DNA of 41,245 bases, taken from contig JAFXVJ010000046.1 of assembly GCA_017524615.1 (NCBI GenBank), positions 1 to 41,245 of the forward strand, in the 5' to 3' direction. The stretch's first letter is position 1; every line of letters begins with the position of its first letter. The DNA is from Clostridia bacterium (lineage in GTDB: Bacteria > Bacillota > Clostridia > Christensenellales > Aristaeellaceae). Positions 14,593 to 41,141 of this stretch are shown here, in pieces. The notes under the pieces are model-generated. The model had not been told where the DNA came from. It did not search any database and saw only the letters and a list, made by a program, of their open reading frames with translations. A program made the position numbers and the translations under genes.

Positions 14593-14805
14593 CGCGCGAT
14601 TGCCCTGCCCCGGATACTTGTCTGAGCGGAAACGACGCCCGATCATGGCCTGGCCAAGCGGTATGCTGCTGTTCCGCCAGGGCCTGAAGCAATACAACCG
14701 GATGGTCTGCATCCGCAAGGCCGCCTTTTCGGGACCGGGGAGCCGCCGCTTCTTATGCTGACCGGGCTTGAGCGTTTTCACTTGCATCGCATCAGAGGCT
14801 GTCTC
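14593..14805. other. Gene-free spacer, no recognisable feature
   Basis: A short frame (about 14643-14763, plus) encodes MAWPSGMLLFRQGLKQ and so on, but it has no ribosome binding site and I recognise no family. It may be a decayed gene remnant. Confidence 0.3.
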
Positions 14806-15024
14806 ATACTATTCTTCTTCTAAAATCTTACAACTTTGGGCGTCTTTTTCGATCTGGCAGCGCGTCCCTGCGGTGAACGCAGCGCTGCTGTTCCTCCCTT
14901 CGTTCCGCTTAGCCAGAACAAAAATCCATCCCAGATCTGCTGAGATTTTAAGATCCAAATTGGCAAGGATGAAAAAAGAGCAAAGGGACGACGGAGCGTT
15001 CTCTTTCGGAGCCCGAAAGAGAAC
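14806..15024 (-). repeat. Family B miniature element, long subtype (B2)
   Basis: The terminus ATACTATTCTTCTTCTAAAATC is followed by CTTTGGGCGTCTTTTTCGATC, matching the B family end. The rest matches window positions 1-185 in reverse. The far end is a perfect 12-bp hairpin GTTCTCTTTCGG (14998-15009) / CCGAAAGAGAAC (15013-15024). No coding potential is convincing. Confidence 0.7.
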
Positions 15025-25942: not shown

Positions 25943-26104
25943 ATACTATTCTCAGTATAAAAGATTATCAGATTTGGGATGAGTTTTTCGCCCTGGCTAA
26001 GCTGAATGGAGGGAGGCGTAGCTGCGCTACGTTGACCGGAATGAAGCAACGCCAGGGCGGAAAAGACACCCAAAGATGATAAGATTTTAGATTGAGAATA
26101 GTAT
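25943..26104 (+). repeat. Family B miniature inverted-repeat element, copy B1
   Basis: This 162-bp unit has ends ATACTATTCTCAGTATAAAAG and CTTTTAGATTGAGAATAGTAT-type. The two ends are inverted copies for about 58 bp (ATCAGATTTGGG / CCCAAAGATGAT; CGCCCTGGC / GCCAGGGCG) around a centre GCGTAGCTGCGCTACG, so nearly the whole element is one hairpin. It differs from B4 at only 2 positions by eye. Flanking TA is consistent with IS630/Tc1-mariner-like mobilisation. Confidence 0.85.
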
Positions 26105-26170
26105 AAGCCGAAAAAGGCGCAGGAAGAGCGGAACGCCGAATGCCACCAGTGGAAAAGCGCTTCATACAGA

Positions 26171-26204
26171 AAAGGCCACAGCGGGTTCGCCCGCTGTGGC
26201 CTTT
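26171..26204 (-). terminator. Terminator of the rho-like gene
   Basis: A perfect 15-bp stem AAAGGCCACAGCGGG / CCCGCTGTGGCCTTT closed by TTCG (CGAA on the minus strand), followed by TTCTG on the minus strand, about 45 bp beyond the stop codon. Confidence 0.8.
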
Positions 26205-26249
26205 CGGATGATTTCTTGTATTCGTTCAGTCCCTGGCTGAACAGGAATG

Positions 26250-28085
26250 CTATTCCTTATCTTCGGGCAGCAGCGCGGCCCGGAGCGTTTTGGCGTCCTC
26301 CATTTCCTGCTCGGTCAGCAGGCGCTCGCAGTGAAGGGTCCTGCTGCGGTAAAAATCTATGGAGAAGAGGTCCGCGCCTTCCCCGGCGCCGTTTTTCTCC
26401 AGGTGCCATTCCAAATTCGCGTATTTTTGGAATTCCCGGTACAGGATATCGTCCGGCCGATCCTGCCCCATCTCCACGGTGGCCAGGACGGTCAGGCTGC
26501 CGGCTTCCTTGGTGTTGCGGGCCGCGCCGAACAGATGGCGCCCCCGGGCAAACAGCGTTCCGGGCGCCGGGAAGAGGCCGGGCGCGGGGGCAGCCATGCC
26601 TGCCCGGGCAATGCGGTTCAGGCTATCGGCCAGGATGATCACATCCCGTTTCTGCTCCACCAGCCGCAGCGCCCTTTCCAGCGCCAGATCGCAGATCCGG
26701 GCCTGGTTTTCGCTGCTTTCATCGAAGGTGGAATACACCAGCTCGGCGGGAAGATCCTCCTTGATTTCGGAAATATCCTCGGGGCGCTGATCCGCCAGCA
26801 GCAGCATCAGATGGGCCTTGGGCTGATTCTTCGCCATCGCCGCGGCGATTTTTTTCAAAAACCCGATCCGGTCCACATCCGGCGTCGCGGCGATCAAGCC
26901 CCGCTGGCCAAAGCCCACGGGGGACAGCAAATCCACCGTCCGCAGCAATTGATCCGCGTCCTTTTTCCCGTTCAGGGTGATGCGCTTCACGGGATAGAGG
27001 GGGGTCAGGTCCTCAAACCGGGGACGGGTCTGATTTTCCTCCGCGGGGTGCCCGTTGATATCCGTGATATACAGCATGGCGCAGTACCGGTCCATCTCCC
27101 GCTGGGGCCGGGTTTTCCCCACGATGTAATCGCCGGAGCGCAGGGAGAAACGCCGGATCTGGGCATTGGAGATATACACGTCATTTTTGCCGGGCAGATG
27201 ACGGTTGACCCGCAGGAAGCCGTACCCGTCGGGATGCACCTCCAGCACGCCCTCGCCGTCGCCGCACTCGCCCTGGGCCAGCAGATCGGCCAGGCCCATC
27301 GCGCCGGAGCCCGAATCCCGATGCCCGTAGGCGCCGCCCCCGGGGGCGGATTCCTGCCGGGGCTGGTATTCCTGACGCGGCTGATAATCCTGCCGGGGCT
27401 GATACTCCTGCCGCGGCTGATACTCCGGACGCGGCTGATAATCCTGCCGGGGCTGGTATTCCTGCTGCGGCTGGCCATAGGCCGGGGCCCGATAATCATT
27501 GGGCCGCGGCTCGGCTTCCGGCGCGGGCTGGTCGGGGCCGAAGCGGTTGGGATAGGAAACAGGCTGCGCCGGGCGGGGCGACGTGGCCCGGGAATCGGTG
27601 CGGCTCGGCGCGGCAGCGCGGCTGTAGCCCCGCGGATCGGCAGGACGGGTCCAGGTCGAGGGCTGGCTGTGGCCGGCGGGCTGGCCCTGATACGCCCGGG
27701 GATTATGCCAGGCCCGGGAGCCCTCCATGGTAAAGGCGGGGGCCTTGGCGGAAATGGTGCTCAGCGAGGACGCGCCCGACGTGGGCGCAGGGGCGGAGGT
27801 CACGGGCCGGCGCACGGTATGGGAGGCCATCTGGTTGGGCGTGAGCACGGGAATATCGTCCTCATCCTCTTCTATTTCGTCATCGGTAATGATGGCGGCG
27901 CTGCGGATGTGCCGCGCAGGCGCCTCCGCAGGCGCCGGGGCCGCCGGTGGAGCTGCCGCGGCGCCGGCCTCGTTCAGCTTATCAATAATTCCCTGCTTGT
28001 TGATGCCGGCCCCCAGCTTCACGCCCATCTCCTTGGCGATTTTGCGCAATTCGATGACCGACATTTGTTCGTAGGATTCGCTCAT
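26250..28085 (-). CDS. Rho-like protein with degenerate ATPase site
   Basis: A 611-residue Rho homologue. Order: Rho N-terminal helical domain (1-40, MSVIELRKIAKEMGVK), disordered Ala/Pro/Gln/Arg-rich insert (41-260) with seven hexapeptide repeats, cold-shock-like RNA-binding domain (about 278-345: DGYGFLR, NDVYISNAQIRRFSLRSGD, DRYCAML), ATPase domain (about 375-600). Where functional Rho reads A-P-P-K-A-G-K-T this protein reads ATPDVDRI (400-407), so the P-loop Lys and Thr are gone. The catalytic Glu after D in LLADQRPED is Gln433, the Q-loop TGGVDANAL is replaced by FPAPGTLFARG, and about 40 C-terminal residues are missing. Walker B Asp487 (VIILADSLNR) and FGAARN remain. Likely RNA-binding but not an ATP-driven terminator; whether a normal rho exists elsewhere is unknown. 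GGAGG precedes the ATG. Confidence 0.9.
   Translation of the reverse strand: MSESYEQMSVIELRKIAKEMGVKLGAGINKQGIIDKLNEAGAAAAPPAAPAPAEAPARHIRSAAIITDDEIEEDEDDIPVLTPNQMASHTVRRPVTSAPAPTSGASSLSTISAKAPAFTMEGSRAWHNPRAYQGQPAGHSQPSTWTRPADPRGYSRAAAPSRTDSRATSPRPAQPVSYPNRFGPDQPAPEAEPRPNDYRAPAYGQPQQEYQPRQDYQPRPEYQPRQEYQPRQDYQPRQEYQPRQESAPGGGAYGHRDSGSGAMGLADLLAQGECGDGEGVLEVHPDGYGFLRVNRHLPGKNDVYISNAQIRRFSLRSGDYIVGKTRPQREMDRYCAMLYITDINGHPAEENQTRPRFEDLTPLYPVKRITLNGKKDADQLLRTVDLLSPVGFGQRGLIAATPDVDRIGFLKKIAAAMAKNQPKAHLMLLLADQRPEDISEIKEDLPAELVYSTFDESSENQARICDLALERALRLVEQKRDVIILADSLNRIARAGMAAPAPGLFPAPGTLFARGRHLFGAARNTKEAGSLTVLATVEMGQDRPDDILYREFQKYANLEWHLEKNGAGEGADLFSIDFYRSRTLHCERLLTEQEMEDAKTLRAALLPEDKE
27348..27473 (-). 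repeat. Seven 18-bp tandem repeats in the rho-like gene
   Basis: They encode residues 205-246: QPQQEY, QPRQDY, QPRPEY, QPRQEY, QPRQDY, QPRQEY, QPRQES. The DNA unit varies mostly at third positions, which points to selection for the peptide. The protein repeat is low-complexity, aromatic- and Arg-rich. Confidence 0.95.
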
Positions 28086-28155
28086 TCAATAACCTCCTCG
28101 CGTCAGCCGCGCACATGGATGCAGAAAAGAAAAAAATGGCAATACGGAAAATGAC

Positions 28156-28290: not shown

Positions 28291-28319
28291 ATTATACCAA
28301 ATCCTTTCGTGAAATTCAA
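28291..28319 (-). promoter_or_regulatory. Promoter of the rho-like gene
   Basis: Minus strand: TTGAAT (28314-28319), 17-bp spacer, TATAAT (28291-28296), leaving a leader of about 200 nt. Upstream, 28320-28515 holds three TTTTTTCGC units and an alternating CG run (28380-28390) and no gene. Confidence 0.75.
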
Positions 28320-30916: not shown

Positions 30917-31720
30917 TTACGGGCGGAACAGCGCGCCCGCGTTCACATCCCGCTCAAGGCCCCGATTGCCGCTGGTGCGGAAGGTTTCCTCAAACTCGGG
31001 AGAGGAAAACACTTCCGCCGGCGTGCCGGCCCGGAGCACCTTCTGACGCACCAGGATCACGGTGTCAGCGTAGCGGCGCACCAGGTCCCAATCGTGGCTC
31101 ACCATCAGGATGGCCAGGTGATGGGATTTCCGCAGGGCGGACACCGTTTGCAGAAACAGGGAAAGCCCGTTTTGGTCCACGCCGGAAACGGGCTCATCCA
31201 ATACCAGCAGATCGGGCAGGGGACACAGGGCCATGGCCAGCAGCACCCGCTGCAGCTCCCCGCCGCTCAACGTGCCCAGGCGCTTGTCGATCAGCGCTTC
31301 CGCCTGCGTTTCAGAAAGGGCCTGAACCACCTGCTGGCGTGTTTTTTTGCTCACGCCCGTCCACACGGGGCGGCGGGCCAGGGACGCGGCCATCAGGTCC
31401 CGCACCGTCAGGGGCATTTCCCGGTCGAAAGGCAGCTGCTGAGGCACATAGCCGATGCGGGGTACGGGAAAATCGTGGCCGTCGGCATCCACATGGCGGA
31501 TCTGGCCGGTGTGAGGCCGCTGGCCCAGCAGGGCCTGGATCAGGGTGGTTTTCCCGGCGCCGTTGGGCCCCACCAGCGCGGTCAGCTGGCCGCAGTGGAT
31601 ATGGAAACTGATATCTGAAATCAGCGTTTCGCCCCCCGCCGTCACCCCCACCTTGTCCAGTTCGATGCGGCACAGGCTGCAATGGGGATCGATGACAGGA
31701 TGGCTGTGATCACTCTTCAT
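30917..31720 (-). CDS. znuC: Metal ABC transporter ATP-binding protein (ZnuC family)
   Basis: Starting at ATG 31720 gives 267 residues; it overlaps the recA stop by 11 bp, suggesting translational coupling. Walker [11 protein letters not shown]-loop YVPQQLPF, signature [12 protein letters not shown], Walker [13 protein letters not shown] and the switch His in MVSHDWD are intact. The N-terminus [15 protein letters not shown] is rich in His and Cys, as in other clostridial ZnuC proteins, and could bind metal. It drives import by ZnuB. No strong SD precedes the start, in line with coupling to recA. Confidence 0.9.
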
Positions 31721-32816
31721 GGTCGTCCGCCATCTCCGGATCCATGTCCGGAATGTCGTTTTCATCCATGGCGGGCACAGTGGTCTGGGTCAAAAGCGCG
31801 CGCAGCCTGGCTTCCACCTCATCCGCCATCTCGGGATGCTCCTTCAGATAGATGCGGGCGTTGTCCCGGCCCTGGGCGATGCGCTGGTCGTTGTAGGAGA
31901 ACCACGCGCCGGACTTGACGATGATATCCTTGGCCACGGCATTGTCCAGCAGGCTGCCCTCCCGGCTGATGCCCTGGCCGTAGATCAGGTCGAATTCGCA
32001 GGAGCGGAAGGGCGGGGCCACCTTGTTTTTCACCACCTTCACCTTGGTGCGGTTGCCGATGACCTCGCTGCCGTTCTTGATCTGCTCGCCCCGGCGCACG
32101 TCCAGGCGCACGGAGGCGTAGAATTTCAGGGCACGGCCGCCGGGGGTGGTTTCGGGGTTGCCGTACATGACGCCCACTTTTTCGCGGATCTGGTTGATGA
32201 AGAGGGCGATGGCGTTGGTTTTCGCCACCACGCCGGTCAGCTTGCGCATGGCCTGGCTCATCAGCCGGGCCTGGATGCCCACGAAGGAATCGCCCATTTC
32301 GCCGTCGATCTCGGCCCGCGGCACCAGCGCGGCCACCGAGTCGATAACCACGATGTCGATGGCGCCGGAGCGCAAAAGAGCCTCGGCGATTTCCAGCGCG
32401 TCCTCGCCGCAGTTGGGCTGGCTGACGTACAGTTCGTCGATGTTCACACCCAGGTTCCTGGCGTAGGCGGGATCCAGGGCGTGCTCCGCGTCGATAAAGG
32501 CCGCCGCGCCGCCCATTTTCTGCACCTGGGCCACCACATGCAGGGCCACGGTGGTTTTGCCGCTGGATTCGGGGCCGAACACCTCGATGATGCGGCCCCG
32601 GGGAATGCCGCCCACGCCCAGGGCCATATCCAGATCCAAACAGCCGGTGGGCACGGTTTCCACCTGCATGGCGGTCTTGTCGCCCAGCTTCATCACGGTG
32701 CCCTTGCCGAATTCCTTTTCAATGCTGCTCAGGGTGGCTTCCAGCGCCCGCATCTTTTCCTGCTGGGTGGAGTCCTGGGTCTTCATTTCCTTTTTTGCGG
32801 TTTCCTTTTTGGCCAT
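31710..32816 (-). CDS. recA: Recombinase RecA
   Basis: This 368-residue DNA-dependent ATPase performs strand exchange and LexA co-cleavage. Walker [10 protein letters not shown] (about 80), Walker B VIDSVAAL, the DNA-binding loop region with [19 protein letters not shown], and [14 protein letters not shown] are intact. The acidic tail ([19 protein letters not shown]) is usual. GGAGAACAGC precedes the ATG. It follows pgsA as in many Firmicutes, and leads into znuC with an overlap. I see no clear LexA site or promoter in the 80 bp upstream. Confidence 0.98.
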
Positions 32817-40979: not shown

Positions 40980-41141
40980 ATACTATTCTCAGTATAAAAG
41001 ATTATCAGATTTGGGATGAGTTTTTCGCCCTGGCTAAGCTGAATGGAGGGAGGCGTAGCAGCGCTACGTTGACCGGAATGAAGCAACGCCAGGGCGGAAA
41101 AGACGCCCAAAGATGATAAGATTTTAGATTGAGAATAGTAT
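40980..41141 (+). repeat. Family B miniature inverted-repeat element, copy B4
   Basis: A 162-bp unit differing from B1 (25943-26104) by about 2 bases (GTAGCAGCGC for GTAGCTGCGC, GACGCCC for GACACCC). Same terminal inverted repeats and flanking TA. Confidence 0.88.

Follow-up and report, generated by a model that had tools for sequence, protein, structure and literature searches.

The rho-like gene and its product

The window—meaning the whole analysed stretch of 41,245 nucleotides, positions 1 to 41,245 of contig JAFXVJ010000046.1 (assembly GCA_017524615.1), from a Clostridia bacterium of the family Aristaeellaceae—carries a rho-like gene on its minus strand. The gene product belongs to the family of Rho, an ATP-driven RNA translocase; its motor site is lost, its RNA-binding fold is kept, and its frame runs open from 28085 to 26250 over the 611 codons that an earlier note on this DNA had read. 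Many relatives of this rumen-type bacterium likewise have a Rho with a broken motor site, in which the RNA-binding part and newly acquired short motifs are preserved; this suggests a molecular machine converted to a use other than that of a motor.

The protein features a Rho_N domain, a long linker, an OB fold, and the remnant of a RecA-like ATPase domain (Table 1). As a whole it reaches 303.5 bits with the Rho model TIGR00767, below the equivalog cut-off of 509.45. The Rho_N domain scores 20.4 bits with PF07498 (E 5e-4; cut-off 24.9), and its helices are confidently folded in the full-length AlphaFold2 (AF2) model. The OB fold is well kept, in line with the earlier note, at 94.9 bits with PF07497 against a cut-off of 27 (E 2.5e-27). 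The linker between the two domains is predicted to be disordered: the predicted local distance difference test (pLDDT) score lies below 50 for residues 46–261 except for single residues. The core is predicted to fold as a Rho-type RecA-like core.

The expression signals that the earlier note had described are found again in the sequence. The promoter-like site at 28319–28291 is a consensus match at 10 of 12 positions in a region that holds two such sites, compared with 0.8 expected by chance. A Shine-Dalgarno sequence precedes the ATG, and a stable hairpin follows the gene. The hairpin is absent from the output of the terminator scan, we think because its stem extends into the T tract. No Rfam match is found between 25500 and 29500.

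Table 1. Features of the rho-like gene and its flanks (window coordinates)
Feature	Position	Strand	Basis or remark
rho-like gene, 611 aa, no internal stop	26250..28085	minus	open frame; single Rho homologue in genome assembly
Rho_N (SAP-like) domain, residues 5-42	27960..28073	minus	Pfam PF07498 and AF2 model
acidic motif IRSAAIITDDEIEEDEDDIPVLTPN, residues 60-84, disordered linker	27834..27908	minus	conserved IxDD-type motif
motif SAKAPAFTMEGSRAWHNPRAYQ, residues 112-133	27687..27752	minus	conserved WHN-containing stretch
RFGP motif, residues 181-184	27534..27545	minus	conserved across damaged genera
Tyr/Arg/Gln-rich YQPRQ-type repeats, disordered linker	27357..27479	minus	sequence
OB-fold primary RNA-binding domain, residues 278-348	27042..27254	minus	Pfam PF07497
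RecA-like ATPase domain remnant, residues 382-605	26271..26942	minus	
former P-loop, residues 400-407 = ATPDVDRI	26865..26888	minus	alignment to relatives
catalytic Glu position = Gln433	26787..26789	minus	alignment to relatives
remnant at Q-loop position, GTLFARG	26541..26561	minus	alignment to relatives
former Arg-finger box = YRSRTL	26334..26351	minus	alignment to relatives
sigma-70-like promoter TTGAAT-17-TATAAT	28291..28319	minus	consensus match only
Shine-Dalgarno AGGAGG, 7 nt ahead of ATG	28093..28098	minus	read from sequence
terminator-like hairpin 3' of gene	26170..26205	minus	-33.1 kcal/mol, z -7.9

Loss of the motor site

In the numbering that we take to be that of E. coli Rho, transferred by way of an intact relative, the window protein carries the exchanges K181D, G183D, K184R, T185I, E211Q, R353G, and R366L. 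None of the Walker A P-loop, the catalytic Glu, the Arg valve, and the Arg finger is intact; the Walker B residue D265 is retained. Gln433, at the position of the catalytic Glu, lies in the stretch DQRPED (residues 432–437), and the Q-loop—the element of secondary RNA binding—is shrunk to GTLF. The C-terminal tail after the altered Arg box comprises 25 residues compared with 57–70 in 30 intact relatives, hence about 32–45 residues are missing. The earlier note had read these losses of P-loop, Glu, Q-loop, Arg box, and roughly 40 terminal residues from the letters, and the alignment with relatives bears each of them out.

Two objections that the earlier note had raised against itself fall away. 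A displaced P-loop is rejected: the pattern [AG]xxxxGK[ST] matches once in the window protein, as GDYIVGKT at residues 318–325, which sits inside the OB fold in a stretch common to intact relatives (GD...GKTR). An assembly error is very unlikely because related losses are found across many independently assembled genomes.

Distribution of damaged and intact Rho

The family was searched in 200 genomes, the window's own counted, and all figures refer to the matches listed. Rho exceeds the cut-off in 84 of these genomes. Among the matches listed, 16 genera with together 103 genomes have no Rho match over the cut-off, the best reaching 465 bits, and genera with intact residues score at least 503 bits (g20). 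Five of the 103 genomes show no or trivial Rho matches, perhaps through incompleteness; four of the 103 (G091, G132, G163, and G185) consist of one or two contigs and are 97–98% complete. The Rho frames extracted number 133 including the window's, 121 of them with a genus code and 12 without. The 30 genus-coded rows from the 19 top-scoring genera all have 8/8 catalytic residues. The 91 rows from the 16 damaged genera have between 0 and 8, only one row reaching 8: L077 of genome G069, from the window's genus, with a Rho score of just 430 bits. The damaged and intact groups were defined by genus after scores and motifs were known, and gaps were scored as lost.

This distribution bears on the proposal of the earlier note that the protein poisons or tunes a true Rho by mixed hexamers or sequesters its rut sites. 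The retained OB fold and much of the core would suit such a regulator of intact Rho, and the window's assembly is only 81.6% complete, which leaves room for a second gene. However, no second Rho is found in that assembly, and none of the 103 genomes has one over the cut-off among the matches listed. Mixed hexamers with a true Rho are hence disfavoured, and we regard a regulator of intact Rho, by these or by rut sequestration, as exceedingly improbable. The NCBIfam family NF041509 (Rho short form, paralog_Rho2) would be a paralogue beside a main Rho, as judged by its name; the window protein, a Rho homologue in an assembly without a second Rho, matches it at 237 bits, compared with a cut-off of 628. 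Some of the 103 genomes may hold a second, low-scoring Rho beyond the matches listed. One genome, G048 (genus g48), has two Rho-like frames on contigs C200 and C225 (L066 and an uncut place), both low-scoring, by duplication or mixed assembly.

At the level of the order, Rho exceeds the cut-off in 117 of 198 genomes. In some other families Rho is damaged or missing, and several genomes of families f25 and f29 show no Rho or weak matches only. At the level of the phylum, the count is 215 of 299. Damaged Rhos seem concentrated in this order since nearly all of the remaining phylum genomes show trivial matches, judged by eye. Damaged Rhos from other families of the order are L140, L143, L147, and L149 (f7, f13 g62, and f25), which lack the AWHN motif described below. 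L149 retains Rho_N and the OB fold, and its ATPase domain is scarcely recognisable.

Conserved motifs in the linker

Three stretches of the linker are conserved despite the predicted disorder: RxAxIITDD..PVLTPN, PAFTxEGxRAWHNPRxYQ, and RFGP. Among the rows of the 16 damaged genera, the acidic IxDD-type motif occurs in 41 of 90, WHN in 69 of 90 (rows with enough N-terminus), and RFGP in 85 of 91; the counts in 27 intact rows, a sample without the intact genera g8, g20, and g30, are 1, 0, and 0. The shuffle rate for WHN is 0.00125. In seven genera, WHN is present in 42/42 rows, with G, W, H, N, and P invariant.

The motif profile A3 finds six places with E below 1e-10 in 151 genomes of the order, all of them within Rho frames. 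The variant of the motif found in g27 and g14 escapes it. Compared with the PDB, A3 yields no match. In the window's genome, the profile and a 91-residue linker query find nothing beyond the gene itself and one match at 0.16. The profile search also revealed the motif in g20, and frame extraction confirmed it in g20 and g30, both with intact catalytic residues. The 40 intact loci were realigned as 39 Rho frames (one duplicate left out), all with 8/8 catalytic residues; three of the loci carry both WHN and RFGP (g20 twice, g30).

Tree and order of events

The denser tree comprises 68 rows, the extreme g7 and g5 rows being left out as long branches; the group in question was named ahead of this tree, but after an earlier one. 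Within the motif clade, the intact genera g20 and g30 group with the damaged g35 (95/79). The intact genus g8 has no motif and is weakly placed (89/49) next to one damaged subclade. Of 64 scored rows, 27 are intact without motif, 33 damaged with motif, four intact with motif, and none damaged without motif; the intact state changes at least four times across them.

A single origin of the damaged Rhos, taken from a 60-row tree (Shimodaira–Hasegawa-like approximate likelihood ratio test 99), is withdrawn: that sample lacked the intact g8, g20, and g30, and the approximately unbiased (AU) test rejects a single clade of damaged rows (p-AU 8.4e-5). Because of this rejection, the motor decayed independently in no fewer than two lineages; the number rises to at least three if the fork joining g35 to g20 and g30 holds. 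Read from the placement of g20 and g30, the motifs seem to have preceded motor loss; the tree itself does not infer the direction.

A route in two steps, by which a near-universal motor protein became a non-motor RNA scaffold, could account for this pattern. The linker motifs would have arisen in an intact Rho—the state of g20 and g30—and the motor would then have been lost repeatedly, with the motifs and the RNA-binding face under selection; g7 would have shed most OB contacts, leaving Rho_N and the motifs. The family would then have acquired a new role in the cell and a partner specific to it. We consider the chances of this route about evenly balanced.

Constraint and decay

Conservation was counted in 47 damaged rows with at most 4/8 catalytic residues; eight g7 rows and the fragment L075 were left out, and gaps counted as lost. 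The residues that we take to be the RNA contacts of the OB fold are widely kept: Y/F62 in 43 rows, F64 in 46, R66 in 44, D78 in 47, Y80 in 45, R87 in 45, R88 in 47, D/E108 in 47, and Y110 in 34, with position 109 being Arg in 17 and Lys in 30. The catalytic residues are kept far less often: K181 in 2 rows, G183 in 20, K184 in 22, T185 in 8, E211 in 14, R366 in 7, and R353 in none. Walker B D265 is retained in 39 of the 47.

These counts can be set against a remodelled NTPase motor that still works with other residues. The fold is retained, D265 is present in 77 and K184 in 55 of all 91 rows of the damaged genera, and besides the complete L077 one g16 member has 7/8 catalytic residues. The window protein, however, has lost the P-loop Lys and Thr, the catalytic Glu, the Arg valve, the Arg finger, and the Q-loop together, and no strongly damaged row retains R353. 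A remodelled motor is hence very improbable.

Selection was judged by the ratio of nonsynonymous to synonymous substitution rates (dN/dS) in pairs within genera at a synonymous divergence of 0.1–1.0. For 19 damaged pairs, both members with at most 4/8 catalytic residues and an ATPase dN below 0.2—a filter that favours low values—the ATPase domain has a median of 0.10 and the OB fold one of 0.06, compared with 0.078 and 0.046 in 18 intact pairs. As judged from these sequences, genes related to the window's are under purifying selection.

Several results weigh against a retained function or restrict what it may be, the filter just named among them. Over all 45 damaged within-genus pairs, unfiltered, the medians rise to 0.35 (ATPase) and 0.15 (OB), with values up to 1.27; because of this higher median, the ATPase domain of damaged Rhos is under relaxed constraint. 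The 123 pairs of damaged genera give 0.41 and 0.22. The window's gene itself evolves fast in the ATPase domain, with dN/dS of 0.47–0.92 (OB 0.07–0.39) toward 10 genus mates, and is the longest end branch in the 68-row tree. L070 (G191) is split into two frames and L072 (G141) has a stop within the matched stretch; these breaks are real or assembly errors. WHN is absent from 21 of the 90 damaged-genus rows, including all 11 of g14 and g15, and from the 14 Rho sequences of the order's other families, at least one of which lacks the N-terminus; since the damaged L140, L143, L147, and L149 are without it, motor decay also occurs without WHN. Finally, genus g7 (L071–L074 and L125–L128) has no P-loop, retains hardly any or no catalytic residues, and has most OB aromatic contacts replaced, so that RNA binding by the OB fold is not the whole of the retained function. 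The acidic motif and WHN are retained in 8/8 rows of g7, which is possibly the end point of the damage series.

Decay toward loss—a dispensable Rho that gains no new function and whose gene erodes, most quickly in its ATPase domain—would fit part of this: degrees of erosion from 0 to 8 of 8 residues stand side by side, the ATPase constraint is relaxed over all damaged pairs, L070 and L072 look broken, the window's branch is long, and several f25 and f29 genomes have no Rho or weak matches. Yet open frames are the rule, close pairs keep a dN/dS near 0.1 after loss of the site, and the OB contacts and linker motifs are selectively kept, with WHN complete in the seven genera and motifs in all 33 damaged rows of the tree. 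We consider plain decay unlikely. Of the decaying pseudogene that the earlier note had set against its own reading, the relaxed ATPase domain stands; the low ratios in close damaged pairs and in the OB fold speak against it, and the loss of the motor site proves to be clade-wide, recurrent, and accompanied by conserved linker motifs.

A probable non-motor role

The window Rho is probably a non-motor RNA-binding scaffold with one or more motif-bound partners, converted from an ATP-driven RNA translocase; our confidence is slightly lowered because L070 and L072 look broken and L077 is fully catalytic. In this scheme, the OB domains and Rho_N would still hold unstructured, pyrimidine-rich nascent RNA, the Rho-like core would provide a platform, structural or as an oligomer, and recruiting a partner or driving condensation might be the task of the acidic, AWHNPR, and RFGP motifs. 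With a motif-based function present, ATP hydrolysis and translocation would become dispensable and could be lost more than once. A Rho without motor could bind transcripts or elongation complexes; it could not pull RNA from RNA polymerase. The earlier note had expected a protein that binds RNA but does not translocate. As far as sequence and predicted structure go, the missing motor site, the kept OB fold, and the open frame agree with this, and the function is a prediction.

A special case that overlaps with the scaffold is a transcription factor that acts on RNA polymerase without translocation, through an allosteric mechanism of the kind put forward for the Rho of E. coli. NusG scores above its cut-off in 13 of the 16 genomes from damaged genera and in 14 of 14 intact ones, and therefore the elongation-factor context persists. 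PMC9908020 proposes a Rho-induced allosteric change of RNA polymerase before translocation; according to the same source, release is still held to require that the ring closes and translocates. The lower coding-strand purine content described below, as expected under weakened Rho termination pressure, also argues weakly against this factor, which we hold to be rather unlikely.

Compared with E. coli Rho (PDB 5jji/1pv4; TIGR00767), the window protein lacks the Walker A, catalytic Glu, Arg valve, Arg finger, and Q-loop and features a long disordered linker with new motifs. The Rho of Bacteroides thetaiotaomicron (BtRho), a gut bacterium, resembles it in having an extended disordered region in which short charged sequences are conserved (PMC13269538); the motifs of the two were compared by description. 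There, the disordered region forms condensates that increase termination, hence the motor of BtRho works, whereas the motor site of the window Rho is lost. M. tuberculosis Rho, with its poor NTPase and helicase activity, resembles what is predicted for the window protein, and catalytic residues are highly conserved in divergent Rhos, according to PMC8828861. A naturally motor-dead Rho is not found in the titles and abstract openings of the open-access literature, preprints and most subscription journals lying outside that scope.

To what extent Rho acts through its motor is debated. The family spans all stages—intact without motifs, intact with motifs, and motor-dead with motifs—and offers a natural experiment on the roles of Rho beyond translocation, on the conversion of a motor into a scaffold, and on the ways in which genomes manage once Rho termination is gone.

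Purine bias of the coding strand

Purine bias may serve as a fingerprint of Rho termination, an idea taken from PMC13323073. It was compared over no more than 20 kb from each genome, or 41 kb in the case of the window, with genes called by our own codon-score script rather than a standard gene finder and the all-N locus L235 dropped. The coding-strand purine content is 52.8% in 40 intact loci and 50.7% in 41 damaged ones (p 1.5e-6), a statistic confounded, like those that follow, by the relatives not being independent. With strands balanced, the values are 52.0% and 51.1% for loci with 1,500 or more coding bases on each strand (26 and 37 loci, p 0.004); they are 51.9% and 51.2% when 2,500 or more are required (21 and 32 loci, p 0.017). 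Matching for guanine–cytosine (GC) content gives 52.4% and 50.8% (15 and 27 loci, p 1e-4), and adjusting for it a difference of -2.6 points (t -6.9). Within the damaged set, purine content does not correlate with how many catalytic residues remain (41 loci, correlation coefficient rho -0.11, p 0.50), and loci from other families that have no evident Rho show no reduced purine, contrary to the idea. The lower purine bias of damaged genomes is hence a weak sign of the kind that PMC13323073 would predict for lost Rho termination.

Neighbourhood of the gene

A recA gene lies near the rho-like gene, at 31710–32816 on the minus strand. No conserved neighbourhood is found: each of 17 other genes in window positions 12–41 kb has a homologue in at most one of 80 related loci, none of them longer than 20 kb (E 1e-15, identity at least 25%). 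Just past the 3' end of the rho-like gene, positions 25943–26104 hold a repeat some 165 bp long that forms an imperfect palindrome; it matches its reverse complement at 71% identity (-91.7 kcal/mol, z -14.6). The genome contains nine copies at 96–100% identity, this one counted, and a few dozen diverged or partial matches; 40980–41141 and 14803–14950 of the window are among the matches. The repeat resembles the type of repetitive extragenic palindromic sequences or miniature inverted-repeat transposable elements (REP/MITE).
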